Source: Phycisphaerae bacterium
Lineage (GTDB): Bacteria; Planctomycetota; Phycisphaerae; Sedimentisphaerales; Anaerobacaceae
DNA length: 36,172 bases
Assembly: GCA_030619925.1 (NCBI GenBank)
Contig: JAUXAL010000043.1
Coordinates: 1 to 36,172 of the forward strand
Direction: 5' to 3'
The notes beneath the pieces were generated by a model. That model ran no database searches. It saw only the letters and a list, made by a program, of their open reading frames with translations, and had not been told where the DNA came from. Position numbers and translations under genes: made by a program. This document shows, in pieces, positions 4,594-21,142 of the stretch; position 1 is the first letter of the stretch, and each line of letters starts with the position of its first letter.

Positions 4594-4622
4594 CAGGCCG
4601 GCGCTGCCGGCCCGCCGAAAAG
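4594..4622. repeat. Double-hairpin palindromic element, intergenic, truncated
   Basis: GGCCGGCGCTGCCGGCC followed by CCGCCG, directly after the 3' end of the NPCBM-PA14 gene. Its hairpin could serve as that gene's transcription stop. It is the same family as the in-frame copies upstream in the operon. Confidence 0.65.
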
Positions 4623-4623
4623 G

Positions 4624-7332
4624 TTACTGTCCTTGCCCCGCCATAACCACTTCAACAATAGCTTTCTTAGCCTCGGCCACGACAGGGCTGTACGGGTAGT
4701 CCTTCGCCATGGCCTCATAAATCACCTTGGCCTGCTCCACGGCCTTGATGCCACACAGCGCCCTTACCTGCCGGACGAGCACCTCCAACTTATAGTAGTT
4801 GCTCAGTTCGAGCTTATTCAACCGCTGAGCCAGATGAAAAGCTATCAGGTGCTCCCCCCTCGCCAGGTGTATATCCAGCCTTACCAGGTTCAGACTCGGC
4901 ATCAGCATCTTCACGGGATCTTCGGCGAGGATGGTCTCAATCTTCTCCATAGCGTAATCCAACTGCACCGGATCGTCCCTGGCCTCAGCCAACAGCCTCG
5001 CGTGCCGCAGCATCCCCATATGCTTGACCTTTTCGCTGGTCTTGCTGCCCTGTTTAGAACTCTCCAGCAGGTTCTCAAGCATCTCTCTCGCTCTTTGCAC
5101 CTCCCCCACAGCTACCAGCGTCTCGGCCCGAATTATCCCAAATCGATGCCCAGCAACGCTGGGTTTCGATCGGACCGGCCTTTGGCCGGCCTCCTTGTCT
5201 AAATCTCTTACCTTCTCGAGCTGGCTTAAAATCTCCCCTGCCTCCTTCACCTTTCCGAAGCACTGCAGCAACAATTCGGCTTGACAAACCATCGCCTGCT
5301 GCTGAACCCGCTTATCTTCGGTCGATTTCTCCCAAAGACCGGTGAAAAGTCTCAATGCTTGCTCATACTGCCGTACCGGAGCCGAGCGCAGGTGCCGGCC
5401 CAGCTCAAAGCAAAAACGCCGGTGCCGGGCCTCTACCACAAGTTCGCCTACCCTTTTCATTAAAGCCGCTACAACTTGCTGCTTCAACTCTGCGCGCTCG
5501 AGTCCATCGGCAAAAGCATACAAATTGACCAGAGCTCCGATAGGTAACCTGCCAAAATCGCTTTCGGATATGGCTTTCTCGAAAGTCTGTATGTTCATCG
5601 GCTCGGGACGGACCTTATCCCACAAAGCGTGAGCGTGAACTTTTTGCGCCACCTCAGCGACCACTTTCCGGTCTTCCAGCACTTCAAATGTCACCGGGCA
5701 CATCCCGGTCCGCAAAAATACATGCTCGATGCTTTGACCCGTCTCGATTTTTCCGTCATCGAATTTCCACCTGTATGAGTATTTGTCGGTTCCTTTTGCT
5801 CTGATTACCTTGAAGCGCATCTGCACCAGAGCCGCCCCGACGGCGGGCTTGGCCAAAGCCGGCGCCCCCGGCCTGTCGTCCAGTCGCCAATCATCGACTA
5901 TCTGCCATTCAAAGCTGCCACCATCTTTGGTTAGCTCATTATATCCAATTGCCGTAGCCACGTAGCGTCCCACAGGCAAAAAATCGCCTCTGGTAATAAG
6001 GCCTAATTTTCCTTTGGGACTTTGCCAGGCAGCCAACGTAAACATTCCTCCCCATGGGATGTAGTTGTGATATTCCAGCTTATGTAGGCCCGGCTCAAGA
6101 CGAATCCGGCCCTGTTTTTGTCCCCTGATCCCGGCCCGGTAGTTGTGTTCGCCGGGCCAGCTCACCACCTCCTTACCGTCAATAAGCAAGTGCGACCCCC
6201 AATTCGACGCCGTGGCGAATATGTACTGACCGGCTTTTTCAGTCTCAAAGAAACCCTTATAGTGATACAGCGCCATACTGCCTTTCTTAGCGTTACCAGA
6301 ACCGAATTCCGGCAGCCGATGAATTGGAAACCCATGGTGAATATTGCCGACCATACTCCTGCCTACCGGCTCGGCGACCTCGTTCCACACTCGCAGCAGC
6401 CCAGGCAGCTTATGGCACTCGGGGTAAATTTTGCTTGTACGTCTTGTCTCCAGGACCAGCCCGGCCTTCGGCTCCCATGCCGAAGGTGTGGATTTATACT
6501 TAGCTGGGGTCCCTTCTTTTGGCACCAGATAAGCGTAGTAGATCACGCTGCCGTGGGAGCTGTCGAAGAGAATTTCCATCGGCTCGCCCCGCCGGGTCCA
6601 AAGAAGCTGGCTGTCGACCCGCTTGCCCATTGAGGTAAAAACTACTGCTTCAAAATCTGTCGGGTCATATCCGGCTGTATATATTTTTGCATAAGATACC
6701 TTCGGATTCTTCCTTTTCAGCAGAAAACCTGCGTTAACCCAGTGTGCCCGCCGGCCCCTCATATTCGAACCGGTTGTTACTAATTTGAGCTCCTTACTTC
6801 CCGATAGTATCCCCACATTAATTTCAACCGGCGGCATCTGTTTGGTCAACGGCCTTGATTTGTACAGTCTTCTCTTATCTGCGTACACCTCAAAGCTGAC
6901 AGACGCATTAGGATCGGCCCTGTCATTAACACCAGCCAACGCCACAAAACGTCCATATTCCTTCTGGTTTTTGTAAACGACAGTCGTAGCCAAGGACACA
7001 GCGATGCCCTTTTTGTAGACTTTTCCGTTCACCCTATGGTATGTGCCGGCCCATTGTCCTTTAGTCTTTGATTTTTTCAAATCCGACGGTCCCTTAGTCG
7101 CCTTCAGGTCAGAGACGTAAACGTCAGGCACCTGCGCGTAACTGTGGTCCTTTTCAATGCGAAACCGCAACGTCGCATCCTCGACGTCCCACGGGACGGA
7201 TCTTCGGATTTCCCCGGCCCAACAGTTGCTGCACAAGAGCAAAGCTGCCGCTGCGGCAAACAACAACCGTCTTATATGCTCTATTGACAACACAATTTTC
7301 AGCATACTGTAACTACATCCAAAATTGTTCAT
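4624..7332 (-). CDS. Secreted NPCBM-PA14-PKD-helical repeat protein, last gene of MoxR operon
   Basis: The 902-residue protein has a hydrophobic export signal (RRLLFAAAAALLLCSNCWA, residues about 21-39), then an NPCBM-like domain (about 40-190), a PA14-like domain (about 335-455, with GQYIFATASNWGSHLLIDG), a PKD-like domain (about 500-575, YRWKFDDG) and a C-terminal half of helical, TPR-like repeats. NPCBM and PA14 usually bind carbohydrate, so it probably sits on the cell surface or in the periplasm and binds glycans or partners of the machine. Its ATG overlaps the preceding stop (ATGA), which implies coupled translation; M10 is an alternative start. Two palindromic elements are read in frame, at 5149-5192 and 5831-5873. 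Domain borders are estimates by eye. Confidence 0.8.
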   Translation of the reverse strand: MNNFGCSYSMLKIVLSIEHIRRLLFAAAAALLLCSNCWAGEIRRSVPWDVEDATLRFRIEKDHSYAQVPDVYVSDLKATKGPSDLKKSKTKGQWAGTYHRVNGKVYKKGIAVSLATTVVYKNQKEYGRFVALAGVNDRADPNASVSFEVYADKRRLYKSRPLTKQMPPVEINVGILSGSKELKLVTTGSNMRGRRAHWVNAGFLLKRKNPKVSYAKIYTAGYDPTDFEAVVFTSMGKRVDSQLLWTRRGEPMEILFDSSHGSVIYYAYLVPKEGTPAKYKSTPSAWEPKAGLVLETRRTSKIYPECHKLPGLLRVWNEVAEPVGRSMVGNIHHGFPIHRLPEFGSGNAKKGSMALYHYKGFFETEKAGQYIFATASNWGSHLLIDGKEVVSWPGEHNYRAGIRGQKQGRIRLEPGLHKLEYHNYIPWGGMFTLAAWQSPKGKLGLITRGDFLPVGRYVATAIGYNELTKDGGSFEWQIVDDWRLDDRPGAPALAKPAVGAALVQMRFKVIRAKGTDKYSYRWKFDDGKIETGQSIEHVFLRTGMCPVTFEVLEDRKVVAEVAQKVHAHALWDKVRPEPMNIQTFEKAISESDFGRLPIGALVNLYAFADGLERAELKQQVVAALMKRVGELVVEARHRRFCFELGRHLRSAPVRQYEQALRLFTGLWEKSTEDKRVQQQAMVCQAELLLQCFGKVKEAGEILSQLEKVRDLDKEAGQRPVRSKPSVAGHRFGIIRAETLVAVGEVQRAREMLENLLESSKQGSKTSEKVKHMGMLRHARLLAEARDDPVQLDYAMEKIETILAEDPVKMLMPSLNLVRLDIHLARGEHLIAFHLAQRLNKLELSNYYKLEVLVRQVRALCGIKAVEQAKVIYEAMAKDYPYSPVVAEAKKAIVEVVMAGQGQ
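5149..5192. repeat. In-frame double-hairpin element (NPCBM-PA14 gene, copy a)
   Basis: Hairpins CCCAGC-aac-GCTGGG and CCGGCC-ttt-GGCCGG surround a CGATCG-type centre. It is translated as AGQRPVRSKPSVAG between two helices of the C-terminal repeats. Confidence 0.75.
5831..5873. repeat. In-frame double-hairpin element (NPCBM-PA14 gene, copy b)
   Basis: The GCC-rich hairpins around GGCCAAAG read as PGAPALAKPAVGAA, just before the PKD-like domain. More diverged than most copies: the TGATCA centre is lost. Confidence 0.6.
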
Positions 7333-10300
7333 TTATTCTGTCTTCTGTTTTCTGTCTTCTGTCCTTTATCTTTGTCCCGCGCCAGCGCCTCAAAATAGGC
7401 GCCAATCATACGCTCATAGCCCCTGAAATCGTACTGCTGTTTCTGGGAGAGCATATCGTCCAGCCTCTTTGCCAGCGCTTTGTCCCGCGTATATTGCACT
7501 GCAAGTTGACTGCCCACTGCCCCGTGTGATTTTTTCAGCGTATCGACCGCCTCGTCGTAAGCGCTGCGGATATCGATTCCGCCGAGGCTGTTTATAGCTT
7601 CTTCTACCTCTTTCATTGCCTGGATGGAGTCTTCCAGTTCCATTGTCGGCAGATTGTGACTTTTGAGCTTGGGCACCAGCTCTTGTGCCGACTGTCGGAT
7701 GTTGCGCTGTTTTTCCTCTGTAGTTTTCATCATATCCAGCACTTTCGGCGGCAATTTACCGCCCGCCCCAAACATGCTGGCACCGTCGGTGGTTTTGCCG
7801 AGCCCTGTGCCCCCTGTCTGAGCCTTCGTGTCCTCATCCGTCACCTGGCCGTTTTCCAGTGGCGTGTTTGAGATTCGTTCCCGCAGACCATACTCATTGT
7901 CAGACAGTGCCTTTGCCACTGGTTCCACCAGCTGGCCGTCAGCCATACCGCTGCGTCCGGCTCCGCTGCGGCCCTGGAGGATATTATCCTCAGGCCTTTG
8001 GTCGCCGGTTTTGCCCTTGGCGCTGGTGCTGCTTATGGTCCCGTCGGCAACCGGCCCGGCGGTATGGTCCAGAGAAGCAAGGTAGCTGCCGATATCTTCC
8101 ACCTCCTGCCGCATCTCTTCTTCCGACGTAATCAAGTCGCTTACCAGGTCTTCGAGCTCCGAGGGTAGTTCAGCTAACGGCGCGACCAACTGCTCATCCT
8201 CGGGGATTTCCGCAATGAATTGGATATTATCCACGAACCCCAGCGTCGCCTCGCAGTTTATCATCAGTTCCTCAGCCATTTCCACCGCTTCGGTCTCCAG
8301 CCGATGAGCGTCCACTCGCGCCTGACGCATCTCCGCAGTTTCCTTGGCTTGTTCGGCAAGTTCGTCGGCCTCCTCGTAGAGACTTTTCATCGATTCGACC
8401 ATCGCGTCGTCCCCGAAGTCCAGCAGGTCCAGATTAGTAAAATCGTTTACCACATTCGATAGAATCTCCGCCAGCTTTGACTGATCCAGCGCAAGTTCTT
8501 CCAACGTATCTTCGTCATCTGCACTGAAGTCCTCCGGCGGTTTGTCCATAATCATTTGCCGTTGTTGCATTATCTCTTTCTGTTGCGTGACGAACTCATC
8601 CAACTCCTCGACTATTTCCTTGAGTGTTTCTTCTAAGCTTGCATCGAGTGACTCAGTGCTTTGACCCAGAATTTCCGCCATAGCCTTTTCCGCCTCAGCC
8701 TGGCTCCGCTTGGCGATTGCGCCCTTAAGCGAGACGAGTTGTTCGAGCAGAAAAGCCTGCAGTCTTTCAACAGACCGCAACGAACGCGAAACAGCAGGCT
8801 TGCTAACTTTCCGGGCTGCCCCCGCTGCTTCGCTTTTGCCAGGCAAAGTGGCGCCGGTGTCCTTCTCCACTGCGTCAACTGCTTTTATTTTCTCCATTGC
8901 CCGGGCATGTTCACCGTCTCGAAGGGTAACAAGTTTATCAACGAAACTTGGACGTGGAGGTGATGATACGTCCCAGGCCTCGGTCATGTGCGTACCGACG
9001 CGTTCCTGTTTTTTGCTCATTTCGACTTGATGCCTCTGCAAGGACCTGACATTCTCCGCTTCTTTCTTACTTTCATCAATTACATCGTCGAGATTGGTCA
9101 GCAGATTTTTTGTTACACCCAGCGCCGCCTGCTGGGCTTCAATCGCCTTGCTCAGTGCCGCAAAGGCATCACTGGCCGGGTCATCCTCCGCAATCGCCAG
9201 CTCATCCAGCGACTTGACCTGAACCGTTATCGGCTGCGATTTGCCCGTGTTGTTCATCGGGCTGAAATCCCGACAGAATGCTTGCAAAACATAGCTGTTG
9301 CCTGGTTTGAACCCAGCAGCGCTGGGTTTGATCAAACCGGCCGTTGGCCGGCTGGTATCAGCCGATAGAAACAGCGTTTCCTCCACCTGTCCTTCCCTTC
9401 CCGGCGGTCCTTCGTATCTCCAACGCTTTATTGTTTCCGCTGGGCTGTCTGTCCGCACCTGCCGAAGTGTCACATATACCTGGCCAACCCCAAAATCGTC
9501 GCGAGCCGCTATGTCAAGATTCAATCTTTCTCCCGGATTCACCGTATAGTTGCGATTGGCCTCCACAAATTCGATTTCCGGCACACCGTCTTGCTGCAAC
9601 AGGACGGCCCCGGAAGCAATGGCAATACGTCTATCGCTTCCCCCGGCAGCGCCGGCCTGATCAGACCCGCCTTCGGCGGGCTTGACCTCAATCTGGTAGG
9701 AACCGGCTCTTTGCAACTGCGTCTCTGCACGCCACACTCTGTCAACATTCTTAAACTCAATCGTTTCGCCGGGGGCCTTCCACCACAGCCCTTCTGCTTG
9801 TTTGTCCAGCTTCACCTCCACAACTACCTGCGAACCGGCCAGCCCTGATACGGCCTCAGGAGGCCCCAGTGTGCTGACCCGACCGCCGCCGCTGTATGCC
9901 GGCGGCGAAATATGAAACTGAGATTCTTGTATTCTCGGCACAGTGTCGACCATCACCTTGATGCTGGGACTATAAGTATCTGCCGCGAATACCCGAAAAG
10001 CAAAAGGCCGTTCCACACCTGCAAAAGTATAGCTGAACTGAGCAGACCCAGCGCTGCCGGCCCGCCGGAGGCGGGTCTGATCAAGGCCGGCGCTGCCGGG
10101 CTGTTTGTGCTCTGCGACCCGCATGGTCTTGGTCTTGCTCTTGCTCTTATCAGGATTTACACTGTCGGCTCCATCCAACCACGCAATCTCAGGATAACTC
10201 CGCAGCGAACCTGGTCCACTGGCATCGCCCTTGCCTTTAACCTCAACCGACACACGCAGGTCATCACCCTCTGCTATGGTCACATCACTGTCCGGCGTAA

Positions 10301-10934
10301 TCTTCAGCACGACCGAGCCTGCCGGCGGCACGTCCCCTAACGGCCGGATGAATCTGGCCAGCGCATTGACTGCGTAGGGGCCCTGACTGATACCATAAAT
10401 CCCCCATAGCAGCATAATAATCACCAATGCTGCCAGCCATTTCTTTATTCTCCGCCGTTCCCACAGTTTTTTCAAATCTGCCTTCGTCATCAAGGAAACC
10501 GCTGTATCTATTGTTCGCTGTACAAATGGTTCCTCGTCCGAGTCAAACTGGCGCCCTTCAAAATACATGGCATTGACCAGCATGTTTTCCGGCACATTGT
10601 ATTTACGCTCCAGAAGCAACGCAGTAGTCTCAAGGTTCTGGCGCTGTAAAATCGGTGACAATAGATTCTTCCAGAGTTCGAATATCATCAAACCGGCACT
10701 GCACAAGACAATCGCCAGACGTAAGCCCGGCGGAAGATGCAAAAGATTCTCTAAGAAAAACAACGCAAGCCACATCCCCAGGCAAACCGTCACCCAAACC
10801 AGCAATCCCAAGACCAGCCGGCCTGTAATCATTACCTGCCGGCCCTTGGCTATTATCTCTCGCACTGGGCCGGCAACGCCGGCCATGATCATGCCCGCCT
10901 TCGGCTGGTCCTGTAGCTCATCTACTTCACTCAT
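7329..10934 (-). CDS. Large membrane protein with coiled-coil C-terminus (DUF4175-like)
   Basis: The 1201-residue protein has three membrane segments near its start (about 39-62, 72-88 and 165-182), an extracytoplasmic beta-rich part (about 190-590) and a long acidic, glutamine- and glutamate-rich helical region (about 590-1010) likely to form coiled coils. It resembles the DUF4175-type proteins often placed in planctomycete MoxR operons; I base this on architecture and context, not on a search. It probably anchors the complex in the membrane and reaches to envelope partners. Its start overlaps the upstream gene by 8 bases. Four palindromic elements lie in frame (near 9311, 9641, 10045 and 10867). 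The C-terminal GQKTENRRQNK is encoded by a heptamer tract and may be an accidental extension. Confidence 0.75.
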   Translation of the reverse strand: MSEVDELQDQPKAGMIMAGVAGPVREIIAKGRQVMITGRLVLGLLVWVTVCLGMWLALFFLENLLHLPPGLRLAIVLCSAGLMIFELWKNLLSPILQRQNLETTALLLERKYNVPENMLVNAMYFEGRQFDSDEEPFVQRTIDTAVSLMTKADLKKLWERRRIKKWLAALVIIMLLWGIYGISQGPYAVNALARFIRPLGDVPPAGSVVLKITPDSDVTIAEGDDLRVSVEVKGKGDASGPGSLRSYPEIAWLDGADSVNPDKSKSKTKTMRVAEHKQPGSAGLDQTRLRRAGSAGSAQFSYTFAGVERPFAFRVFAADTYSPSIKVMVDTVPRIQESQFHISPPAYSGGGRVSTLGPPEAVSGLAGSQVVVEVKLDKQAEGLWWKAPGETIEFKNVDRVWRAETQLQRAGSYQIEVKPAEGGSDQAGAAGGSDRRIAIASGAVLLQQDGVPEIEFVEANRNYTVNPGERLNLDIAARDDFGVGQVYVTLRQVRTDSPAETIKRWRYEGPPGREGQVEETLFLSADTSRPTAGLIKPSAAGFKPGNSYVLQAFCRDFSPMNNTGKSQPITVQVKSLDELAIAEDDPASDAFAALSKAIEAQQAALGVTKNLLTNLDDVIDESKKEAENVRSLQRHQVEMSKKQERVGTHMTEAWDVSSPPRPSFVDKLVTLRDGEHARAMEKIKAVDAVEKDTGATLPGKSEAAGAARKVSKPAVSRSLRSVERLQAFLLEQLVSLKGAIAKRSQAEAEKAMAEILGQSTESLDASLEETLKEIVEELDEFVTQQKEIMQQRQMIMDKPPEDFSADDEDTLEELALDQSKLAEILSNVVNDFTNLDLLDFGDDAMVESMKSLYEEADELAEQAKETAEMRQARVDAHRLETEAVEMAEELMINCEATLGFVDNIQFIAEIPEDEQLVAPLAELPSELEDLVSDLITSEEEMRQEVEDIGSYLASLDHTAGPVADGTISSTSAKGKTGDQRPEDNILQGRSGAGRSGMADGQLVEPVAKALSDNEYGLRERISNTPLENGQVTDEDTKAQTGGTGLGKTTDGASMFGAGGKLPPKVLDMMKTTEEKQRNIRQSAQELVPKLKSHNLPTMELEDSIQAMKEVEEAINSLGGIDIRSAYDEAVDTLKKSHGAVGSQLAVQYTRDKALAKRLDDMLSQKQQYDFRGYERMIGAYFEALARDKDKGQKTENRRQNK
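7330..7372. repeat. Heptamer tract (ttctgtc type) coding for a protein C-terminus
   Basis: TTCTGTC, TTCTGTT, TTCTGTC and TTCTGTC units in period 7 overlap the end of the 1201-residue protein and the start of the next gene. The same heptamer recurs at 17930-18014 and 35601-35663. Confidence 0.7.
9311..9355. repeat. In-frame double-hairpin element (1201-residue protein, copy a)
   Basis: CCCAGC-agc-GCTGGG, TTTGATCAAA and CCGGCC-gtt-GGCCGG. Translated as RPTAGLIKPSAAGF within the beta-rich extracytoplasmic part. Confidence 0.8.
9641..9683. repeat. In-frame double-hairpin element (1201-residue protein, copy b)
   Basis: CCGGC-agc-GCCGG, CTGATCAG and CCCGCC-ttc-GGCGGG. Translated as KPAEGGSDQAGAAGG, a frame different from copy a. 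Confidence 0.85.
10045..10103. repeat. In-frame double-hairpin element, extended (1201-residue protein, copy c)
   Basis: A complete copy with a further half-hairpin (CAGCGCTGCCGG) at its left end. It is read as PGSAGLDQTRLRRAGSAG, the most frequent translation of the family. Confidence 0.85.
10867..10908. repeat. In-frame double-hairpin element (1201-residue protein, copy d)
   Basis: GGCCGGC-aac-GCCGGCC, ATGATCAT and CCCGCC-ttc-GGC. Translated as QPKAGMIMAGVAGP in the N-terminal tail, before the first membrane segment. Confidence 0.8.
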
Positions 10935-12192: not shown

Positions 12193-14649
12193 TTAAAACA
12201 AATTCATCTTGCGCCGCACTATCCATTCCAGCATAAGAATGATTAGAAACATCAGAAGGTATATGTACCTGTCCTGGACCAGCGGCATCTCCAGGCTGAC
12301 AGCGTAATCCATAATCCTGCTTCTAAGTGTCTCAATCAGCTCTTCAAAGTCGGCCTCCCTAAAATACGCACCGCCGCCCCTCGTCGCCAGGTTGTCCAGA
12401 AACGCATGATCGACTTGGAGGTTAGCACCTTCATTCAGCCTTGGCCCCACTGCCAGTGTCTTTTCATAGGACTCTAATAGTTTTTCTCCCAGGTAGGCAT
12501 GTACTTCAAACAGGTATTCCGCCCTCTCAGAAAAGACCATTTCCGCACTGAACGTATTTTCCCTGCCCATCACGGCTTCGACAGATACCGGCCTGGTAAC
12601 CTGCTCATCAGAGGCCCCAGCGGCCTTCAAGGTTGCTTTCAAATGTAACTGTCCAGGGTTATATCGCCCGCCGACGCGAATCGTAGCACGGGCCTGTTCG
12701 CCTGGTCTATAGCCCTTTTTGTCCCACTTGACGCTGACAAAGCGCTGCCCTTCTTCCCACTGCGATAAGTTCCTGACCGCCTGTCGCCAGAAATGACCGT
12801 ACGCTTGCCCGAGCACCTCAGAGCCGACAGTCCACTTCCACAGAGTGTTTGTCGCTATTGCCATTGTTTGTCCCTGTCCATAACGCTGAAGCGCGATCAC
12901 CGGCACTGTCCTGTTGCCGACCGAAGCGTCCAGCAGGCTGATAGCTCCGCTCCTCAGAGGCCCATGTAGATTTATACTCTCGATAGTAGGGGCGGTTCGC
13001 GAACCGCCCCTACCAGCCGGCCAACGGCCGGTTTGATCAAGGCCGGCGCTGCCGGCCTGACCAATAAGTTCTGACGTTTCCGAAATAATACTGTGATTTA
13101 CCGCTGACAACGGCACACTTACCGTAAACTGGCCCGTTTGCAGCTCCGGCTCAGCATCACTTATCTCCCACGGAAACAACGGCTCAATCACCGTCCCCGA
13201 ATAACCGCCCCGACCGAAAGAATGCTCTCCTCCCAGAAAGATCACTGCTCCGCCCTCACGCACGTATTCTACCAGGGCCTGCAGTTGTTCTTCTTGCCAC
13301 TGCCAAGCGGGCAGTGAGCCCACTATAACGCATCTATACAGCCCAAGGCCGGCCCCGCCGTCTTTGATCAAACCCGCTTCCGGCGGGCCGGCTTTGCTGG
13401 AAGGAAAGCCGGCTTCAAGATTCTCATCGCCTTCATGGCGACTGCCCTGCACAATAAATCGGTCATCGCTTATGCGAAACAGTGCCGTCAGTGCCACCAA
13501 TGGGTCGCGGGCCAGCTCTTTGCGAATCATGCTGAAATCCCACCCCACCTGCTGAGCAAAAAGCAGTATAGGCAGAGCGGTCTTACGTATCTCTACTGGA
13601 AACGTCCTGGCGTTATTCAATTCTGACAGTTCTCCCTCAATCGTTTCAACCCGAACGCGATACTTTTTCGTTCCCAACCCAGCAGCGCTGGCTTGGGTCT
13701 GCCGAAAGCCGGTTTGCTCGAGGCCGGCACTGCCGGCCTGCACCCTGAATTTCACCCGTGCCTCGGCCCCTGCGAGGTCAACCACCTCAGCAGCTCGAAC
13801 TTGCCAGCCGTCTGCGTTCTTCTCCTCCAGCCTGACTTTCACCTGCCCGGCCCTTGCGGCAAAATCACCGGAGACAGAGCGGACCACGATGTCAGCGGCC
13901 ACTTCAAAATCGCTTTGCTCTTCCACAACCTCCGGTGCTTCGATCGTGGTTATCGCTATATCATTCCAGGTCTCCGGCTCACTGCCCACGCCGGTGATGT
14001 AAACCGGCACTTCGGGCAGTCTGACATCTTGTACCACTTCGTCGCCGCCGTCTGTAATCAGAATCACGCCCACGTAGCTGGACCGGTCAACGGCCGGTCC
14101 GGTCCAGGCCGGCGCTGTTGAGTCCAGCTTGTCTGCCATGGTAACCAGACACTTACCCAAATCGGTCTTTCGGACCCCTTCAGTAGGACCAAACGCGGCA
14201 AACTGCTTATCCTTCTCGGAATTGCCGGCGTCAGCCCTGCTCTTACTGCGCTTACTTAGCTCGCGCACCTCCAGGTCGAATTCCAGGGCATCAATATCAA
14301 TGTAAGAAGATTCCAGTCCCTGCGTGAGCTCTTCCACCAGGCCGGCAGCTCGCTGGGCCCGTGTGCTTTTGGATTCGTCCTCGACCTCCATGGAAGATGA
14401 TGTGTCGACCAGGACGACAACCTTTTTATTTTTTCCCGGCCTTTGCATCACGCTCCATACCGGGTCAAAATAGGCCAAAATCAGCAGCAGCACTATCAGC
14501 ACCTTGGGTACCAGCAGCATTACGGCTTGTTTGGCTGGATGCTGTCTTCGCAGTCGCCGATATAGAATAATCAGCCAAACCACCAGGCCCAGAATCAAGC
14601 CCGCCCCCAAGACCGGGTTAAGATGTGTCTGCCACCGAAGTGCTCCCAT
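12193..14649 (-). CDS. VWA-domain membrane protein with glutamine-amidotransferase-like domain
   Basis: The 818-residue protein has two N-terminal membrane segments (about 14-31 and 43-61), a VWA domain whose metal site starts DTSSS at D82, a class I glutamine-amidotransferase-like domain (about 415-490, with EGGAVIFLGGEHSFG, apparently without the catalytic cysteine nucleophile), and a last membrane helix (YIYLLMFLIILMLEW). This set matches the large VWA proteins of bacterial MoxR-DUF58 operons, probably acting in the envelope as metal-dependent binding subunits. Its ATG shares one base with the upstream stop (TAATG). Four palindromic elements and one 28-bp perfect palindrome are read in frame. 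The client of the complex is unknown. Confidence 0.82.
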   Translation of the reverse strand: MGALRWQTHLNPVLGAGLILGLVVWLIILYRRLRRQHPAKQAVMLLVPKVLIVLLLILAYFDPVWSVMQRPGKNKKVVVLVDTSSSMEVEDESKSTRAQRAAGLVEELTQGLESSYIDIDALEFDLEVRELSKRSKSRADAGNSEKDKQFAAFGPTEGVRKTDLGKCLVTMADKLDSTAPAWTGPAVDRSSYVGVILITDGGDEVVQDVRLPEVPVYITGVGSEPETWNDIAITTIEAPEVVEEQSDFEVAADIVVRSVSGDFAARAGQVKVRLEEKNADGWQVRAAEVVDLAGAEARVKFRVQAGSAGLEQTGFRQTQASAAGLGTKKYRVRVETIEGELSELNNARTFPVEIRKTALPILLFAQQVGWDFSMIRKELARDPLVALTALFRISDDRFIVQGSRHEGDENLEAGFPSSKAGPPEAGLIKDGGAGLGLYRCVIVGSLPAWQWQEEQLQALVEYVREGGAVIFLGGEHSFGRGGYSGTVIEPLFPWEISDAEPELQTGQFTVSVPLSAVNHSIISETSELIGQAGSAGLDQTGRWPAGRGGSRTAPTIESINLHGPLRSGAISLLDASVGNRTVPVIALQRYGQGQTMAIATNTLWKWTVGSEVLGQAYGHFWRQAVRNLSQWEEGQRFVSVKWDKKGYRPGEQARATIRVGGRYNPGQLHLKATLKAAGASDEQVTRPVSVEAVMGRENTFSAEMVFSERAEYLFEVHAYLGEKLLESYEKTLAVGPRLNEGANLQVDHAFLDNLATRGGGAYFREADFEELIETLRSRIMDYAVSLEMPLVQDRYIYLLMFLIILMLEWIVRRKMNLF
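12986..13013. repeat. Perfect 28-bp palindrome inside a gene
   Basis: GTAGGGGCGGTTCG is followed at once by its exact reverse complement. It is translated as GRGGSRTAPT and directly adjoins a double-hairpin element. From memory, similar GTAGGGGCGG repeats are scattered in many bacterial genomes. Confidence 0.85.
13014..13059. repeat. In-frame double-hairpin element (VWA/GATase gene, copy a)
   Basis: CCGGCC-aac-GGCCGG, TTTGATCAA and GGCCGGC-gct-GCCGGCC. Translated as AGSAGLDQTGRWPAG next to the 28-bp palindrome, so two repeat types are stacked in one loop. Confidence 0.85.
13345..13400. repeat. In-frame double-hairpin element (VWA/GATase gene, copy b)
   Basis: AAGGCCGGCCCCGCC, TTTGATCAAA and CCCGC-ttcc-GGCGGG. 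Read as SKAGPPEAGLIKDGGAGL just before the amidotransferase-like domain. Confidence 0.8.
13676..13740. repeat. In-frame double-hairpin element (VWA/GATase gene, copy c)
   Basis: Three GC-rich hairpins, with a TTGCTCGAG centre in place of TTGATCAAG. Read as QAGSAGLEQTGFRQTQASAA. Confidence 0.75.
14080..14120. repeat. In-frame double-hairpin element (VWA/GATase gene, copy d)
   Basis: GGACCGGTCAACGGCCGGTC and CAGGCCGGCGCTG are fused without the usual centre. Read as TAPAWTGPAVDRSS, inside the VWA domain. Confidence 0.55.
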
Positions 14650-16919
14650 TAGCCTGCCCTCCAGCCCGTAATCTTATCTGCAGGTGATTTGCCAATGATC
14701 CTCATTACCTTACGGCTCAGTCTGTTAACCGGAGCCACTGGCACTGTTTCGGCTTCTGATATTCTCTCTTCGGCAGTGCTTTGCCCGGCCCGCCGAAGGC
14801 GGGCATGATCAAGGCCGGCGCTGCCGGCCCGGGACGGCTTGTGGCTGCCCAGCCAGCCCTCTGCCAACAGCGCCAGCGTTGCCAGCAGAAGCAGAAATAA
14901 ATACGACTCTATTGCTCTTGCCTGGCCCTTATGGTGTTGTCCGAAGTCTTCGGCCTCATCGTAGGGCAATATCTTATGTGCCATCTGACCTATAATCGGA
15001 ACTTGCGAACCTTCGACAAATTTCTCTAATCCTTCTTTTTCTGATGCACGCACTGATATACAGTATTTGTCATCATCTGTCCTGACCAGGTACACCCCGG
15101 CTCGGGGAAAGGCTGGGATTTCTTGCCCTTTGCCTTTCCAGTCCATCGGATCACCCACCAGGGAAAGAATCTCAACCTCACTACCTTCGGCCATGATACC
15201 GCGCGGACGCTCACCGGCCACCAGTGATAATGTTCGCTGCCCTTCGGACGAGCCCCCCCCTACCGCCATGCGCTGGGTCATCACTACCAGCAACCCCGTA
15301 AGAGGCAGCGTATTCCACTGCGGAGCGAAAGCTGTGCCGCTGACGTAAATATTGCCCTGGCCCAGTTTTCTATGTGCAATTACTACTCTTTCGGAATCAA
15401 CTCCCAAAAGTGGCGTGAACTCGCCGGCCAATACCAGCGGATGAAACACGTACGCGCTGACGGGTTCCAGCTTCGAACCTGCTGATGCATCGCGGATTCG
15501 ATGCCAGAAGGTGGTTCTATCATCCAATACTTCCAAGCCGGCACCCCGCGGGTACACCTCACGGGCCTTTATGCCCGCACCGAGCCAGTCCGGGAGCTGT
15601 TCAGAAACGACTCTTCGCCCAGGTTTAACCGATGGAACGACCAGAAGATTGCCACCGGCTTCTACGTACTCCCGCAGCGGTACCGAGCTTTCTCCCATAA
15701 GTTGCAATCCCGTCCAGGTCATAACAATCATAATTGGTTTTTCCTCGGCAGCCGTTTGGCTCAACTGACCGGGCAAGCGGAACTCCGCAACCATACCGGT
15801 AAACTGCCCTTGGCCCGAAGGCGACAGGGCCACCGGCAGCACGCCGAACTCCTCCGGCGTGCCCCAAAACATGATTGTTGCCGTCTCTTCGCAGAATATT
15901 CCCACCCCCGCTTCATTGTCCGCCGAGAAGCCATCGCCTTCGATCCAGACCTTAATCCAGTGGTACCCATTCTCGTCCGGTTTTGTTTCCACTTCTACTG
16001 TCTCGGTCCTACCCCGCGCCAGCGTCACGTTCTCCGTATTTTTGCTGTCCTGGCTGTCAATAGAGTTGAGACGGATATTGGCGACAGTATCCGAGGTGTT
16101 CTGCAGCACCAAGCCGATTGAATAAGTGTGTTTAGGCAGAATCCTTTCCTCGGGCAATTGTATCGCCGTTATCGCCACGTTAGCTTCGTCCTGGATTTCA
16201 GGTTCGATCTTATGAACGTAAACTGTTATCGGCGCCTCACCCGCTTCAAGGCGCTCTGAGACTGTCCCCCACTCGGTCTGCTGTAGGTCGCTGAACACAT
16301 GCACAGCCCCGCCGCCCGCAGAGCTCGCACGAAGAAGTCCAAAAGCCCGCGCCAGCGCACGGCCGGCATCTCCTGTCGCCTGCGTAGGCCTGATTCTATC
16401 AAGTAAGGCTAAAAGAGACTCCTTGTCGGAAGTTAGCGAGTCGCCGACCAGCGCCGGGTTTCGATCTGACCGGCCCTCGGCTGGCTCTACCGCCGGGTCA
16501 TCGACCAGCAACACCACCGCTGCTTCCGAGCCGTCTTCCAGTGTGGAAATAAGTCTTCTGGCAGATGTCACCGCACATTGGAGCTTTGTCTTATCGTTAT
16601 CATAACCGGCCCCGTCGCTCATTGACCCGGAGTTGTCCACTACCGCCACCACCGAAATCTTGCCGCCCAGCCCCCCCGAGCTTTGAAATATCGGGCGTGA
16701 CAACGCCAGCAGTATGAATGCAATCAACAAAATCCGCATCAGAAGCAGCAGCCATTGCCGGATTTTGCGATGCGAGTTCAGCTTTGGATCCGTCCGGTGA
16801 AAGAACATCAGCGTCGAGAATACCACCGTGCGTTTTTTTTGCTTGAGAACAAAGTGAAAAACGATGGGCAGCCCCGCTAACGGTAGAAGATAAAGAAAGA
16901 TGGGAGCGGGAAAAATCAT
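14649..16919 (-). CDS. BatA-like VWA-domain membrane protein
   Basis: The 756-residue protein starts with the double-membrane BatA-type domain (FPAPIFLYLLPLAGLPIVFHFVL, then a second helix at about 56-75) and a VWA domain with metal site DNSGS at D95. A middle part carries an amidotransferase-like fold (YVEAGGNLLVVPS near 420), and a final helix (LFLLLLATLALLAEGW) is near 680. BatA-type proteins work with MoxR and DUF58 partners, and the gene overlaps the DUF58 gene by 4 bases (ATGA). Two palindromic elements are in frame, at 14784 and 16447. Membrane orientation puts the VWA domain on the periplasmic side or between the two helices; this cannot be settled from the sequence. Confidence 0.85.
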   Translation of the reverse strand: MIFPAPIFLYLLPLAGLPIVFHFVLKQKKRTVVFSTLMFFHRTDPKLNSHRKIRQWLLLLMRILLIAFILLALSRPIFQSSGGLGGKISVVAVVDNSGSMSDGAGYDNDKTKLQCAVTSARRLISTLEDGSEAAVVLLVDDPAVEPAEGRSDRNPALVGDSLTSDKESLLALLDRIRPTQATGDAGRALARAFGLLRASSAGGGAVHVFSDLQQTEWGTVSERLEAGEAPITVYVHKIEPEIQDEANVAITAIQLPEERILPKHTYSIGLVLQNTSDTVANIRLNSIDSQDSKNTENVTLARGRTETVEVETKPDENGYHWIKVWIEGDGFSADNEAGVGIFCEETATIMFWGTPEEFGVLPVALSPSGQGQFTGMVAEFRLPGQLSQTAAEEKPIMIVMTWTGLQLMGESSVPLREYVEAGGNLLVVPSVKPGRRVVSEQLPDWLGAGIKAREVYPRGAGLEVLDDRTTFWHRIRDASAGSKLEPVSAYVFHPLVLAGEFTPLLGVDSERVVIAHRKLGQGNIYVSGTAFAPQWNTLPLTGLLVVMTQRMAVGGGSSEGQRTLSLVAGERPRGIMAEGSEVEILSLVGDPMDWKGKGQEIPAFPRAGVYLVRTDDDKYCISVRASEKEGLEKFVEGSQVPIIGQMAHKILPYDEAEDFGQHHKGQARAIESYLFLLLLATLALLAEGWLGSHKPSRAGSAGLDHARLRRAGQSTAEERISEAETVPVAPVNRLSRKVMRIIGKSPADKITGWRAG
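14784..14833. repeat. In-frame double-hairpin element (BatA-like gene, copy a)
   Basis: A nearly ideal copy: CCCGCC-gaag-GCGGG, CATGATCAA and GGCCGGCGCTGCCGGCC. Read as SRAGSAGLDHARLRRAG in the tail after the last membrane helix. Confidence 0.9.
16447..16487. repeat. In-frame double-hairpin element (BatA-like gene, copy b)
   Basis: CCAGCGCCGGG, TTTCGATCTGA and CCGGCC-ctc-GGCTGG. Read as EPAEGRSDRNPALVG in a loop of the VWA domain. Confidence 0.7.
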
Positions 16920-17893
16920 GCCATTCTACTCCTCTGCAAAATGACGTCTATTACCTCCGTCCTGGTCTCTGCCAGGATATATTCGGCCCGGATTTTTTGA
17001 CAGCCGCTTCGCAGCTCGTCGAGATAAAGACGTAGCTGCTCAAGGTAAGCATCCCGTATCTGTCTAAAATCCACCGTTATCTTCTCTTTCGTCTCCAGCG
17101 AGGCAACATCCACCAGTCCCGTCATCGACATGCTAATCTCTGCCGGGTCCAAAACGTGAAACAGTGTAATCTGTTTGCCGTCATAGTGGAGGTGGTTTAT
17201 GCCCTGCAGTATGCTTTCGGGTTCTTCCAGCAGGTCGGAAATGACAATCACGAATGCTCTGCCCTTGATCAGTTCGGCCGCGCTGTGCAGCGCCGCCTCG
17301 ATATTGCCCGCCGAAGGCCGGGTTGATTCCGACCCGGCTGCGCTGGAATTCGCCGGCTCGATTTTTTCGAGGCCCAGCAGCATTGGCTTAAGCCCCACGA
17401 AGCTCCCGGACGGTTCATAGTACTTGCGGACCCGGTCATCGAACGTAATCAGCGAAACCATATCTCCCTGCCGCACCATCAGATACATCAGCGCCGCCGC
17501 CAGATAGCAGGCGTATTCACTCTTTTGCAGCGGCCCATCCTGCTTGTATTTCATACTGCCGGATATATCGAGCATAATGTAACAGCGGATACTTACATCT
17601 TCATGGAACCGCCGGATAACGTACCGGTCGCTTCGGGCGTAAACCGGCCAGTCAATCCGCGCAATCGGATCGCCCGGCACATATTCGCGGTACTCAGCGA
17701 ATTCCACAGAGGACCCGAACGCAGGCGACCTGTGCAGTCCCTGGCGGCTGCCGTCCATCGGCCGATGCACAGCTATTCCAACTCCGCGCAGACGCTCGGC
17801 CATTTGCGACGGAAGATACTTATAGCCGACCCCCGCCGAGGGCGGGCCCGCCACCGACCCGGCTCCGCTCCCCTGACCTGCCGATTCAGTCAT
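16916..17893 (-). CDS. DUF58 family protein
   Basis: The 325-residue protein carries the DUF58 signature (SVEFAEYREYVPGDPIARIDW, about 62-82, followed by YARSDRYVIRRF) leading into a VWA-like fold with the metal site DISGS at D109. Such proteins pair with MoxR ATPases. It lacks membrane helices, so it is cytosolic or peripheral. The ATG at 17893 is preferred over the GTG at 17899 because GGAGG at 17899-17903 gives the right spacing only for the ATG. The N-terminal 20 residues (GSGAGSVAGPPSAG) and residues near 185-198 come from palindromic elements. A heptamer tract separates it from the MoxR gene. Confidence 0.9.
   Translation of the reverse strand: MTESAGQGSGAGSVAGPPSAGVGYKYLPSQMAERLRGVGIAVHRPMDGSRQGLHRSPAFGSSVEFAEYREYVPGDPIARIDWPVYARSDRYVIRRFHEDVSIRCYIMLDISGSMKYKQDGPLQKSEYACYLAAALMYLMVRQGDMVSLITFDDRVRKYYEPSGSFVGLKPMLLGLEKIEPANSSAAGSESTRPSAGNIEAALHSAAELIKGRAFVIVISDLLEEPESILQGINHLHYDGKQITLFHVLDPAEISMSMTGLVDVASLETKEKITVDFRQIRDAYLEQLRLYLDELRSGCQKIRAEYILAETRTEVIDVILQRSRMA
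17306..17346. repeat. In-frame double-hairpin element (DUF58 gene, copy a)
   Basis: CCCGCCGAAGGCCGGG, TTGATTCCGA and CCCGGCTGCGCTGG. Read as SSAAGSESTRPSAG in a loop of the VWA-like fold. Confidence 0.7.
17830..17869. repeat. Probable double-hairpin element (DUF58 gene, copy b)
   Basis: CCCCGCC-gag-GGCGGG with a weak second hairpin. Read as GSGAGSVAGPPSAGV in the disordered N-terminus; a diverged copy. Confidence 0.5.
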
Positions 17894-17910
17894 ACACACC
17901 TCCGGTTAAC

Positions 17911-18014: not shown

Positions 18015-18016
18015 TC

Positions 18017-19222
18017 CTACTCTGACTCACCCACCGCATCCAGCAGTTTTTTGATCACTGCATCGGTATCGAGTCCTTCGCTGGCCGCGGCGAAGTTGAG
18101 AATCATCCTGTGACGCAGCACCGGCAAGGCAAATTCTCGGATATCATCGCATGAGACATTGAAGCGGCCGTTCAGGACCACATGCGCCTTAGCCGCCAGT
18201 ATCAGCGATTGCCCGGCACGAGGTCCGCAGCCGTATCGCACAAACTTATTGACAAACTCAGGAGCCTCATCGCGCTGTGGTCGCGTTGCGCGGCACAGTC
18301 GGGCCGCATATTTAGCCACATACTCGCTGACCGGAACCTGCCGGACCAAATCCTGGTACCTCGTGACCGATTTAGCGTCGAGGACGCCGTCGAGCACCTC
18401 CCCATCGCGACCGGTAGTCGACAACAGAATTTGCTGCTCTTCCGGCAGGTTGGGATAGTCAACCTTTATAAGCAGAATGAACCGGTCTAACTGTGCTTCC
18501 GGAAGCGGATAGGTGCCTTCCAACTCTAAGGGATTTTGCGTTGCCAGCACTAAAAAAGGTTCAGGCAGCGTGTGGGTACGACCTGATTCGGTCACTGTAC
18601 GCTCCTGCATTGCTTCCAGCAGCGCCGCCTGCGTCTTCGGCGGAGTACGGTTGATCTCGTCGGCCAAAAGTACATTCGTAAAGATCGGCCCTCTGTGGAA
18701 AACAAACCGTCGCTGCCGAGTTTTCGGGTCGCTTTGTAGAATGTTCGTCCCGGTAATATCGGTGGGCATAAGGTCAGGCGTGAACTGAATCCGCTTGAAA
18801 TCGAGCAGCATCGTCTGCGCCAGGCTGTACACCATCATAGTTTTTGCCAGTCCGGGCACCCCCATCAGCACACAATGGCCCCGGGCAAAAAACGCGGTGA
18901 GGATCTGATCCAGCACCTTTTTTTGCCCGACAATGGCTTTGCCCACTTCAGCGAGGATATTAGCTTTGGCCTGTGCCAGCGATTCAACCGCCGCGACGGT
19001 CCCGCTTGACCCTGAAGCGGTTCTCACCAATGGAGCTGTGGACCCGCTTTCGTCGACAATCTGCCCGGATGCCACATCAAATTTGCATCCGCATTTGCAG
19101 CGAGCCCGCCGAAGGCGGGTTTGATCCGACCCGGCGCTGCCGGGCTGCCCGGGCGAAACATTGCTGACCTGATACATTCTTCCACATTCCGGACAGCTTA
19201 CAGTGGACCTCTTATCTGCCAT
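18017..19222 (-). CDS. MoxR-family AAA+ ATPase with N-terminal zinc ribbon
   Basis: This 401-residue AAA+ ATPase has Walker A GVPGLAKT at 121-128, Walker B VLLADEIN with D188/E189, and sensor ATQNPLELEGTYPLPEAQLDRF. These are hallmarks of MoxR chaperone-like ATPases that remodel VWA-protein partners. The first 50 residues form a zinc ribbon, CPEC at 10-13 and CKCGC at 42-46; between the pairs lies a palindromic-element peptide (GQPGSAGSDQTRLRRA, about 25-40). The ATG at 19222 has GGAGG seven bases upstream, so the longer frame to 19270 is not used. It is the second gene of the operon and precedes its DUF58 partner. It should act in the cytosol as a hexamer. Confidence 0.93.
   Translation of the reverse strand: MADKRSTVSCPECGRMYQVSNVSPGQPGSAGSDQTRLRRARCKCGCKFDVASGQIVDESGSTAPLVRTASGSSGTVAAVESLAQAKANILAEVGKAIVGQKKVLDQILTAFFARGHCVLMGVPGLAKTMMVYSLAQTMLLDFKRIQFTPDLMPTDITGTNILQSDPKTRQRRFVFHRGPIFTNVLLADEINRTPPKTQAALLEAMQERTVTESGRTHTLPEPFLVLATQNPLELEGTYPLPEAQLDRFILLIKVDYPNLPEEQQILLSTTGRDGEVLDGVLDAKSVTRYQDLVRQVPVSEYVAKYAARLCRATRPQRDEAPEFVNKFVRYGCGPRAGQSLILAAKAHVVLNGRFNVSCDDIREFALPVLRHRMILNFAAASEGLDTDAVIKKLLDAVGESE
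19104..19145. repeat. In-frame double-hairpin element splitting a zinc ribbon
   Basis: CCCGCC-gaa-GGCGGG, TTTGATCCGA and CCCGGC-gct-GCCGGG. Read as GSAGSDQTRLRRA between the two cysteine pairs of the MoxR zinc ribbon. Confidence 0.85.
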
Positions 19223-19235
19223 ACAATACCCTCCG

Positions 19236-19268
19236 CTACTACTCTGCGTAGTAGCTACGCTACGTAGC
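19236..19268. repeat. Two tandem small hairpins before the MoxR gene
   Basis: CTACTAC-tctgc-GTAGTAG and GCTACG-cta-CGTAGC share a base and fill the gap between the DUF4159 and MoxR genes. On the transcript they precede the ribosome site and may be a processing or attenuation signal; no T-run follows, so they are unlikely to terminate. Confidence 0.6.
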
Positions 19269-19274
19269 ACGAGT

Positions 19275-20840
19275 CTAATGAGTCATAACGTACGTAATAA
19301 TGTTCATACCTAACTGCTGGGCCCCGATCGAGTCATAGCCCCTTATTAGCGGATAGTAGGCCTCCAGCCAGCCGGCTTCAAGGTCGTAGGGACTGTAGAG
19401 AACTCTCAGGTCACCGTCGATTGTCACGCCCAATAGGTAGGGCCGATTCTTAAGTTCCGGTTTGTTTTTCGCCAGCACGGGCGAATACGTCACCTGCCTG
19501 ATTGAGACAAAACTGTTGTAGAGATTATGATTTGCCGCGATAGGCTCCAGTTTCGCCTCGGGCACAATCTTTGCCAGCTCCCGCCGCACCGCTCTGTCAA
19601 ACGTACTCAACCCCATACCGTTGTTTATCAAGAGCACGCCTCGGTAATCAAGGTGACGCCGCAGAGCAGTAACTGCCTCCGGAGAAAACGAGAAATCGTC
19701 CATACCTGTCATGTACAGAAACGGATACGAGGAAAGGTCGTCCTCTTCCGGGTCCACCGCCACGCGTTTTAGGTTGACGCGAACAGCACTGTGCCTCCGC
19801 AGCTTCGTCAGCAGTGCCGTTGCTCCCCCGGGATGCACGTTCCACACTCCGTCGTGCTTGATCTGGGCAAAGACAAATTCGTCTGTAGGTCTTTTCTCGT
19901 CCGCCAGGCCGAAAACTTCCGGCTGACCCTCCAAAAGTCCCACCTCGGCGTAGCCTACAATGTATGCCGCCAGGTTAAGGCCAATTTGATTGGCACTTTT
20001 TATGTCGTAATAAGCTGCCTGCCGCAGTCCGCTGAGCCTTCGTATATCACGGTTCCATCCGCAGCCTAACCCGTATTTCGAAACCAGCACACCGACCCGG
20101 CTGCCGACGTAGATACCCTCCATAAACGGCTTGGTGCCGCCGGCGCCGGCCTTGATCATGCTCCCCTTCGACGCACGGTCTTTTGGATAAATCAGCTTCG
20201 CCACATCCACAAGCATATGATAGAGCGGATGATCTGCCGGAAGCACCCGGAACCGACATTCCGGAAACGCCTCCAGGAAAATCTTCTTGGCCGATTCATA
20301 AAAGTAAGGCGAGCCCGCAATCGAATCGCAGATAACCATACCACCATTCAATACGTATTCACGCAGCGCCTGGATATGCGTCTGGCTAAGCCTCAGCGTC
20401 CGCCCTCCGCTGAATAGTAGTGCCGGCAGCTTCTTCGGGTCGAAGTGAAAATCGTTAAGGTTGACATTCTGCCAGTGATATGCCAAATCCATCGTCCGGC
20501 CGTTTCCCACGAACTTTTCCATGTCCGTAGGACACAGATTCCAGTCGGCAATCTCCGTCTTCTGGCCGCCTGAGTCCACAAAAGAGGCCGATTCACCCCA
20601 TATTACCTTGCCTACCAGGTAGTCTGGCTGCGGCGGCTTCTTGCGTTCGGTACGCCGCAAAGGTGTAGCCGGCAACGGCAGCGGCGCCAGCGCCTCGGCC
20701 GCGCTGATGTTCTTGCGCGGCGCCTTTGGAGTTGTCTTGTTGCCTAAATAGACGAACCAGTCGTTTTCCTTGCCCTGGGCCGGCACAGACGCCACGAACA
20801 TGGTCACAATTAACACACAGATCGCTCTTTTTGTTCTCAT
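19275..20840 (-). CDS. Secreted protein with two DUF4159-type domains, first gene of MoxR operon
   Basis: The 521-residue product has an export signal (RAICVLIVTMFVASVPAQG) and two similar domains, about residues 75-235 and 310-515. Both contain the DUF4159 pattern of a Rossmann-like layer: VFAQIKHDG, then FLYMTGMDDFSFSPEAVTALRRHLDYRGVLLINN in the second, LLFSGGRTLRLSQTHIQALREYVLNGGMVICD in the first. DUF4159 resembles amidotransferase-like folds and often accompanies MoxR/VWA genes; its activity is unknown. The ATG at 20840 is chosen over a start at 20975 because the promoter at 20984-21012 would place 20975 at the transcription start, and AAGG lies before 20840. One short palindromic element is in frame near 20133. 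Confidence 0.82.
   Translation of the reverse strand: MRTKRAICVLIVTMFVASVPAQGKENDWFVYLGNKTTPKAPRKNISAAEALAPLPLPATPLRRTERKKPPQPDYLVGKVIWGESASFVDSGGQKTEIADWNLCPTDMEKFVGNGRTMDLAYHWQNVNLNDFHFDPKKLPALLFSGGRTLRLSQTHIQALREYVLNGGMVICDSIAGSPYFYESAKKIFLEAFPECRFRVLPADHPLYHMLVDVAKLIYPKDRASKGSMIKAGAGGTKPFMEGIYVGSRVGVLVSKYGLGCGWNRDIRRLSGLRQAAYYDIKSANQIGLNLAAYIVGYAEVGLLEGQPEVFGLADEKRPTDEFVFAQIKHDGVWNVHPGGATALLTKLRRHSAVRVNLKRVAVDPEEDDLSSYPFLYMTGMDDFSFSPEAVTALRRHLDYRGVLLINNGMGLSTFDRAVRRELAKIVPEAKLEPIAANHNLYNSFVSIRQVTYSPVLAKNKPELKNRPYLLGVTIDGDLRVLYSPYDLEAGWLEAYYPLIRGYDSIGAQQLGMNIITYVMTH
20133..20170. repeat. In-frame double-hairpin element (DUF4159 gene)
   Basis: CCGCCGGCGCCGGC, CTTGATCATG and CCCCTTCGA; the second hairpin has decayed. 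Read as SKGSMIKAGAGGTK between the two DUF4159 domains. Confidence 0.65.
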
Positions 20841-20983: not shown

Positions 20984-21012
20984 ATTATACACTATTTTCA
21001 ACGAAAATTCAA
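20984..21012 (-). promoter_or_regulatory. Promoter of the MoxR operon
   Basis: Minus strand: TTGAAT (21007-21012), 17 bases, TATAAT (20984-20989). Start near 20977 gives a leader of about 137 bases. It is the only good promoter match in the gap upstream of the eight-gene operon. Confidence 0.6.
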
Positions 21013-21013
21013 A

Positions 21014-21056
21014 CCATATATATGTCGGCCTTAAAAAATTTAAGGCCTATATATTG
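21014..21056. promoter_or_regulatory. Long palindrome just upstream of the MoxR operon promoter
   Basis: GGCCTTAAA-aaa-TTTAAGGCC (21027-21047), extended by ATATAT on both sides with a small bulge. It abuts the -35 box and could be an operator for a dimeric regulator. It could also end transcription of the DUF6807 gene, though no T-run follows the stem. Confidence 0.45.
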
Positions 21057-21111
21057 TTATAGATTATTGCTAAAAAAGGACTTAGGGAAAAATGTTACAA
21101 CTCCCGTCGAA

Positions 21112-21142
21112 GGCGGACACGGGCCAGGCCGGCGCTGCCGGC
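21112..21142. repeat. Double-hairpin palindromic element, intergenic
   Basis: CCCGTCGAAGGCGGACACGGG and GGCCGGCGCTGCCGGCC, right after the stop of the DUF6807 gene. It probably serves as its transcription end by forming a stable hairpin. Confidence 0.7.

Follow-up and report, generated by a model that had tools for sequence, protein, structure and literature searches.

A probable mobile element of 43 nucleotides, inserted in frame as a double-hairpin palindrome in protein genes of a Phycisphaerae lineage

How can one family of short, GC-rich hairpins recur throughout an operon of unrelated genes and leave every reading frame intact? The question is raised by a stretch of 36,172 nucleotides (the window, meaning here the whole stretch analysed; contig JAUXAL010000043.1, C91 in our numbering) from the genome of a Phycisphaerae bacterium (assembly GCA_030619925.1; 4.02 Mb in 141 contigs, 93% complete). 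The window carries an operon of eight genes, arranged as DUF4159, MoxR, DUF58, BatA/VWA and genes for large proteins, through which pairs of hairpins are scattered. With a probability of roughly 0.86, we regard these as dispersed copies of a mobile element, small and non-autonomous, that forms a protein-coding palindrome of two hairpins and belongs to one Phycisphaerae lineage. The original prediction, made by a reader of the letters, had counted about 18 elements, 16 of them within genes (seven of the operon's eight), with no frame broken. A covariance model built from the 17 complete window copies bears this count out, finding 17 complete copies and one partial, all within 4591-21144; 16 lie inside genes, spread over seven of the eight, and the reading frame is intact in each. 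The model placed no copy in the operon gene at 10927-12174, and those outside genes are the copy at 21102-21144 and the partial one at 4591-4612. No copy was found past 21144 in the window, as had also been said of the region of sugar genes there. The concentration is striking: of 113 matches at E<=1e-4 across the genome, 16 fall in 0.9% of its length (Poisson P 2e-14), a result biased upwards by the use of window copies to train the model.

The core unit, as read from 70 copies of exactly 43 nt, all of them different, comprises two hairpins with 3-nt loops and, between them, a spacer containing GATC. The consensus of hairpin A is CCCGCC-GAA-GGCGGG (the loop had been given as gaag; it is GAA, 3 nt) and that of hairpin B is GGCCGGC-GCT-GCCGGCC. 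The size of 40-60 bp first proposed has to be narrowed to 43 nt for the core; longer composites do exist (10041-10102; 13697-13739 with an extra hairpin; 12986-13058 with a 28-nt palindrome). Within the spacer, G20 is present in 70/70 copies, T22 in 69/70, C23 in 68/70, A21 in 64 and T19 in 60, positions 18, 24 and 25 being variable; T19 and A21 are kept although the resulting TGA closes one frame on each strand. The stems display compensated pairs among the same 70 copies, with C-G in 53 and G-C in 12 at positions 4-14, G-C in 41 and C-G in 23 at 27-41, G-C in 59 and C-G in 10 at 31-37, and G-C in 59 and A-T in 10 at 30-38. Over both stems, 240 cells are changed on both sides versus 74 in shuffles, and 92.5% of cells are paired, in an alignment of 150 model-fitted rows in which some copies are present as readings of both strands. 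The signal is weaker in the 17 training copies alone (9 double-changed cells versus 4.3, a value equalled in 1 of 500 shuffles), where the number of pairs with a double change is not above that in shuffles. Folded as DNA, five strands of four copies each gave two hairpins (z -2.3 to -4.4). As a pointer to the active strand, G.T and A.C mismatches at non-terminal pairs (12 versus 6) do not differ significantly. Neither the covariation nor the conservation of GATC is due to the encoded peptides, because the frames of the hosts differ.

At sites in genes the copies are derived insertions that keep the reading frame open. Alignment with orthologs had been proposed beforehand, and up to five relatives proved to have no insert where the flanking protein aligns: when six window genes were aligned by codon with three to five relatives each, 13 of 14 elements proved to be insertions absent from all relatives, and the fourteenth, at 14788, is unalignable. 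Nucleotide alignments free of codon constraint agree for MoxR, for further genes of this genome, and for five more elements of G051, the nearest relative by MoxR (81% identical). The converse case is also found, G051 alone carrying an insert of +36 nt in DUF4159 at a site that is empty here and in two other genomes. Of 22 simple sites, 17 show a net gain of 36 nt, three of 39 and two of 33, a preference for 36 with P 1e-8 if one in five is assumed. These figures were compiled by hand from the alignments, with C126:47393 entered as 36 (its value against L273; it is 39 against L272); outside the compilation are C90:22426 and C54:67864 (relative with its own insert there), 14788, and 5147 with its counterpart L127:2125, which has no empty homolog among the relatives examined, and three further copies have no spanning relative. 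Since the unit is mostly 43 nt (41-45) and the gain 36, about 7 target bases are gone at a typical site; the loss ranges roughly from 4 to 9, chance matches at the borders blurring the exact number and leaving the net gain unaffected. G051, for example, reads GGG-ACAAAAG-CTCG where this genome reads GGG-[43 nt]-CTCG. Five sites are composite or degenerate, with gains of 48 nt (13697), 51 (17831), 57 (10041 and 13016) and 60 (C126:36904, in a MurD homolog). The last could be the sum of 36 and an adjoining hairpin of about 24, and one of the 57s that of 36 and 21 from the 28-nt palindrome. Every gain at a gene site is a multiple of three, because both genes compared are open.

The relation of the element to genes was read from a set of 97 rows scoring at least 40.6 bits, reduced to 96 by one both-strand duplicate, of which 90 lie within the DNA examined. 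The regions were selected because they hold copies, and the simple coding-potential script used to call genes took open frames of 60 codons or more, so that shorter broken pieces would be missed. Seventy copies lie in called genes and 20 between them; with a coding share of 82% in the examined DNA this matches chance (P 0.27), and genes are therefore not avoided. G051 gives a similar picture, with 29 of 36 copies in genes and five between (coding share 81%; 8 of 44 rows dropped, seven as both-strand duplicates and one as partial). The original expectation that at least three frames are used holds, and genome-wide all six combinations of orientation and frame occur (7, 16 and 9 copies on the same strand as the gene, 16, 20 and 2 on the opposite; 32 same and 38 anti in all). 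The two frames that meet TGA hold only 9 of the 70 copies in genes versus an expected third (P 1e-4). Moreover, none of the 90 copies has a called gene ending inside it, against about 18 of 70 (26%) expected without selection (P 7e-10), an expectation that uses TGA frequencies of 80% and 76% in the 43-nt copies. That no called gene is closed by a copy is the main evidence for translation of the element, which, from these open frames, we infer to be translated. An earlier form of the stop test (stop kept in 0 of 6 stop-frame copies and in 109 of 134 elsewhere) was dropped as circular, because a copy counts as in-gene only if its frame is open.

In the genome as a whole, more than 150 covariance-model matches are found; stricter filters at E<=1e-4 leave at least 113, about 110 of them distinct (at least three are second readings of one copy). 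The genome scan suggested at the outset thus turned up some 100 further copies, and neither outcome named in advance as contrary, a scan without further copies or distant orthologs bearing the same residues, was observed. A short pattern of the unit matches the genome 24 times and its reversed control 0 times. Close relatives, all Phycisphaerae or Planctomycetota metagenome assemblies, differ sharply in content. G051 yields 48 matches at E<=0.1, a number that includes copies read on both strands, and G060 has 17 at E<=0.01; among 40 others at E<=1e-4, 36 have none and the other four have one or two. Zero element matches were obtained in G057, G058, G059, G061 and G062, whose records hold all or part of the operon, and none at E<=0.1 in G017 and G043, where operon genes are present. 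Throughout the class, taking the best 25 candidates per genome from 249 genomes, a match at E<=1e-5 occurs in three, including this one. The element family is confined to one Phycisphaerae lineage, this marine planctomycete and its close kin. A more distant relative carries at L087 (G013:C299) an element resembling that at C47:7158, with similar coding sequence on its flanks, possibly reflecting gene transfer together with the insert. Four copies, C3:29132, C51:10955, C84:52769 and C87:69477, form part of a larger repeat flanked by TTCTCGATTC; two of these copies are in called genes and two are intergenic.

The host proteins include MoxR and homologs of CarB, SecA, MurD and ROK kinases, and in the latter four the insert falls at gaps in the alignment to solved structures. 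The cysteine pairs on either side of the MoxR insert presumably read like a zinc ribbon. Two element-free relatives share 44% identity over the 12 columns surrounding 13 window sites, versus 59% at random positions (P 0.008), with single sites spanning 17% to 75%. The majority of aligned sites are occupied in a single species; those at 5147, 14082 and C126:47393 are common to this genome and G051, as is, probably, C90:22426. At 5147 a compensated swap in the stem of hairpin A distinguishes the two genomes. The copy at C126:47393 and its counterpart L128:3471 are identical over 43 bases within a stretch that is 74% identical between the genomes, which suggests recent conversion or strong constraint. 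Four G051 elements (L127:5479, 5599 and 12993; L118:16227) occupy positions in this operon that are empty in the present genome; the operon therefore attracts or tolerates insertions in both genomes.

Several other accounts of these copies have to be considered. The first is that the copies are simply GC-rich coding sequence in quickly evolving linkers, and that chance or codon bias makes them similar. This would agree with the location of the sites in less conserved stretches, but one 43-nt unit yields different peptides in its six orientation-frames, its residues are absent from relatives, and the empty sites already refute an explanation to which we assign practically no weight. Functional RNA or DNA signals, such as terminators, mRNA stabilisers or nucleoid sites selected site by site, would explain strong covarying hairpins and a conserved GATC spacer; both orientations are used in unrelated hosts, however, the sites mostly differ in the nearest relative, the operons of five element-free relatives have none, and a scan of the window against Rfam gave no family at gathering score, all of which renders this account very improbable. 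Slightly more improbable again is that the insert is cut from RNA or skipped by the ribosome and is absent from the protein, in the manner of byp elements, small GC-rich hairpins within genes of fungal mitochondria. Frame and stops would then be irrelevant, yet the aligned gene copies keep frame and the deficit of genes ending in a copy (none against about 18) is pronounced. A more serious contender, though still a distinctly unlikely one, is that these are repetitive extragenic palindromic (REP) sequences or bacterial interspersed mosaic elements (BIMEs) of the RAYT (Y1 tyrosine transposase) type, present in genes by happenstance. The genome has four Y1-transposase matches, one of them (C33:581) flanked by GTAG palindromes; a GTAG palindrome adjoins the 13016 element; and intragenic REPs are on record in the portion of PMC3733652 consulted. 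Nevertheless, a GTAG or CGTC tetramer (or complement) stands no more than 8 nt from an end in only 2 and 5 of 90 copies, respectively, and none is in the consensus; the four Y1 loci have no significant copy; and copies are not depleted in genes, whereas REPs are mainly intergenic according to the same portion of that source. The palindromes flanking the Y1 gene at L010 (C33:581) are other GTAG palindromes, arranged as they would be around a RAYT gene.

Several findings nonetheless weigh against a mobile, translated, frame-keeping element. Mobility is known only as presence or absence between species, and translation is predicted from open frames in called genes. No mobilising gene was found in this 93% complete genome, the four Y1-transposase genes having no significant copy within loci of 2.5-3.2 kb (best E 0.34). 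The flanks reveal no strong target motif, the bias being weak (0.47 for C at -3, 0.81 for a purine at -1 and 0.51 for G at +1), and no target duplication is evident in the empty-site alignments inspected. The gain differs from 36 at 5 of 22 simple sites, in addition to the five composite or degenerate ones, so the 7-nt rule is not strict. Two intergenic empty sites were tried, of which one did not align; at the other, C8:10539, the gain of about 32 nt, in a stretch with other indels, is not divisible by three. Two of the 36 G051 copies sit at the edge of a gene.

These last observations bear on whether the constancy of +36 belongs to the insertion itself. One reading, to which we give clearly less than even odds, is that insertion is inherently frame-preserving, about 7 bases being swapped for a 43-nt double hairpin with a gain of 12 codons, and that genes are colonised as freely as intergenic DNA. 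A marginally weaker candidate, and likewise unlikely, is that insertion length is random and +36 merely results from selection for an open frame. All hosts are intact, so gains are forced to multiples of 3, values of 33 and 39 are also seen, and the sole alignable intergenic copy departs from a multiple of 3; selection for frame alone, however, gives no preference for 36 over 30, 33, 39 or 42, contrary to the 17 of 22 recorded. A crude model, which ignores possible harm from intergenic insertions and uses regions preselected as holding copies, predicts 51% of copies in genes for random length with two closed frames, and 75% if the frame is always kept and the stop frames alone are purged; 78% are observed. 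The corresponding P values, for random length versus kept frame, are 1e-7 versus 0.71 here and 1.5e-4 versus 0.45 in G051. This supports built-in frame keeping, and is not proof of it. If a mobile element is accepted, a folded single strand might be what its mobilising machinery recognises, which would fit the covariation and the GATC; alternatively, one arm may be repaired from the other. The 8-base spacer would replace the approximately 7 target bases, and the two hairpins would supply the added 36. The element would then spread through genes because its length keeps frame, four of six frames are open and the peptides are tolerated in variable stretches. By way of speculation, and with the odds rather against it, the scheme we favour has a folded single-stranded patch joined into a short gap at a fork and moved by a putative enzyme.

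Known elements resemble this one in part. As described in the sections of PMC10969869 used here, Rickettsia palindromic elements (RPEs) measure about 150 bp, occur in frame in unrelated genes as several families per genome, and are translated as extra peptide. The likeness to RPEs, drawn in the original prediction, is sound for behaviour (in-frame inserts, several frames, many unrelated host genes) and fails for size: the present unit has 43 nt, with two hairpins around a GATC spacer in another phylum, and usually gains 36 nt with about 7 target nt replaced, and there is no gene depletion; the two are set apart by their descriptions. REPs tagged with GTAG/CGTC are short palindromes, often paired and in some cases within ORFs, with Planctomycetes included (PMC3733652, in the part concerned); unlike them and BIMEs, the family described here is without the tag, is not mostly intergenic and has no member beside a Y1 gene. 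The double-hairpin elements and GC clusters of mitochondria (fungi, sponges, yeast var1) are in some cases double, sometimes genic, and kept in transcripts (PMC2800124, likewise in part). The likeness of two hairpins and a short spacer is one of plan only, the present family having about 110 copies in a bacterial chromosome, mostly in protein genes. Bacterial miniature inverted-repeat transposable elements (MITEs), such as ERIC/RU, QMITE and Nezha, are non-autonomous and dispersed, with an occasional in-frame fusion (PMC10969869, same sections), and 70-300 bp long (PMC3733652, same part); the element is shorter, lacks enclosing terminal inverted repeats, its ends being different hairpins, and shows no target duplication. 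No account of the 43-nt family was found in the open-licence literature searched. In-frame palindromes as such are already known (RPEs, intragenic REPs), and the family adds a new example to this rare kind.

A second family consists of single hairpins, GGTTCCCGC-NNN-GCGGGGTCC, of about 24 nt, which adds 24 nt in frame at C84:58.3k (58314), C34:3.7k (3681) and C126:47.7k (47752). By pattern search, there are 14 distinct copies in 411 kb, 10 genic and 4 outside (the others lie within L043-L080), three in 176 kb of G051, and zero in 109 kb from seven element-free records. In another planctomycete, the gene at L149, aligned with window 12193-14649, has a 75-nt in-frame insert that looks like a double hairpin of different sequence, which suggests that several such families exist in the group. 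Two MITE-like repeats of about 130 nt (L053:5940-6080 and L047:10228-10360) each have more than 10 matches in G051, with identities of up to about 96%. Around the operon of the window lie short tandem arrays (ATACGCAATACGC, TCTTCTGTC) and repeats of about 101 nt (3972-4173, 17912-18011, 35603-35660, 4287-4564 and 35668-35996).

Table 1. Copies of the element and associated features in the window, with net gain over the empty site or basis of the assignment.
Feature	Positions	Strand	Remarks
Partial copy, hairpin B only	4591..4612	+	just outside NPCBM/PKD gene; model positions 21-42, 24.6 bits
Element in gene 4624-7332	5147..5190	-	site common to G051 (L127:2125)
Divergent element in gene 4624-7332	5831..5874	+	covariance model
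Element in gene 7329-10934	9310..9352	-	net +36 nt
Element in gene 7329-10934	9640..9681	-	net +33 nt
Composite B'-A-B element, three hairpins, in gene 7329-10934	10041..10102	+	net +57 nt
Element close to N-terminus of gene 7329-10934	10867..10909	-	net +36 nt
Perfect 28-nt palindrome, GTAG-ended, adjoining 13016 element	12986..13013	.	sequence
Element in gene 12193-14649	13016..13058	+	net +57 nt, counted with adjoining palindrome
Element in gene 12193-14649	13346..13388	-	net +39 nt
Element in gene 12193-14649, extra hairpin just below	13697..13739	+	net +48 nt
Element in gene 12193-14649	14082..14124	+	net +36 nt; site common to G051 (L127:10916)
Element in C-terminal tail, BatA/VWA gene 14649-16919	14788..14830	+	empty site unalignable
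Element in gene 14649-16919	16442..16485	-	net +36 nt
Element in DUF58 gene 16916-17899	17306..17349	+	net +36 nt
Degenerate element, N-terminus of DUF58 gene	17831..17875	+	net +51 nt
Element near N-terminus of MoxR gene 18017-19270, between two cysteine pairs	19104..19146	+	net +36 nt
Element in DUF4159 gene 19275-20975	20134..20174	-	net +33 nt
Intergenic element, touching stop codon of gene 21144-22115	21102..21144	+	covariance model
Host gene, MoxR-type AAA ATPase with presumed N-terminal zinc ribbon	18017..19270	-	sequence

Protein-coding palindromes are known chiefly from Rickettsia, where their origin and the keeping of frame are open questions. In the lineage described here, close relatives with and without the element let insertion length, target loss, age and tolerance be read directly. 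The genomes also constitute a natural experiment in which proteins, including homologs of CarB, SecA and MurD, absorb ready-made inserts of 12 residues, and the exchange of 43 bases in for about 7 out is a concrete prediction for the hunt for an enzyme. If insertion is indeed inherently frame-preserving, this would be a mobile element whose geometry, rather than later selection, preserves the frame, and the 24-nt sister hairpin, with its gain of 8 codons, would obey the same rule.

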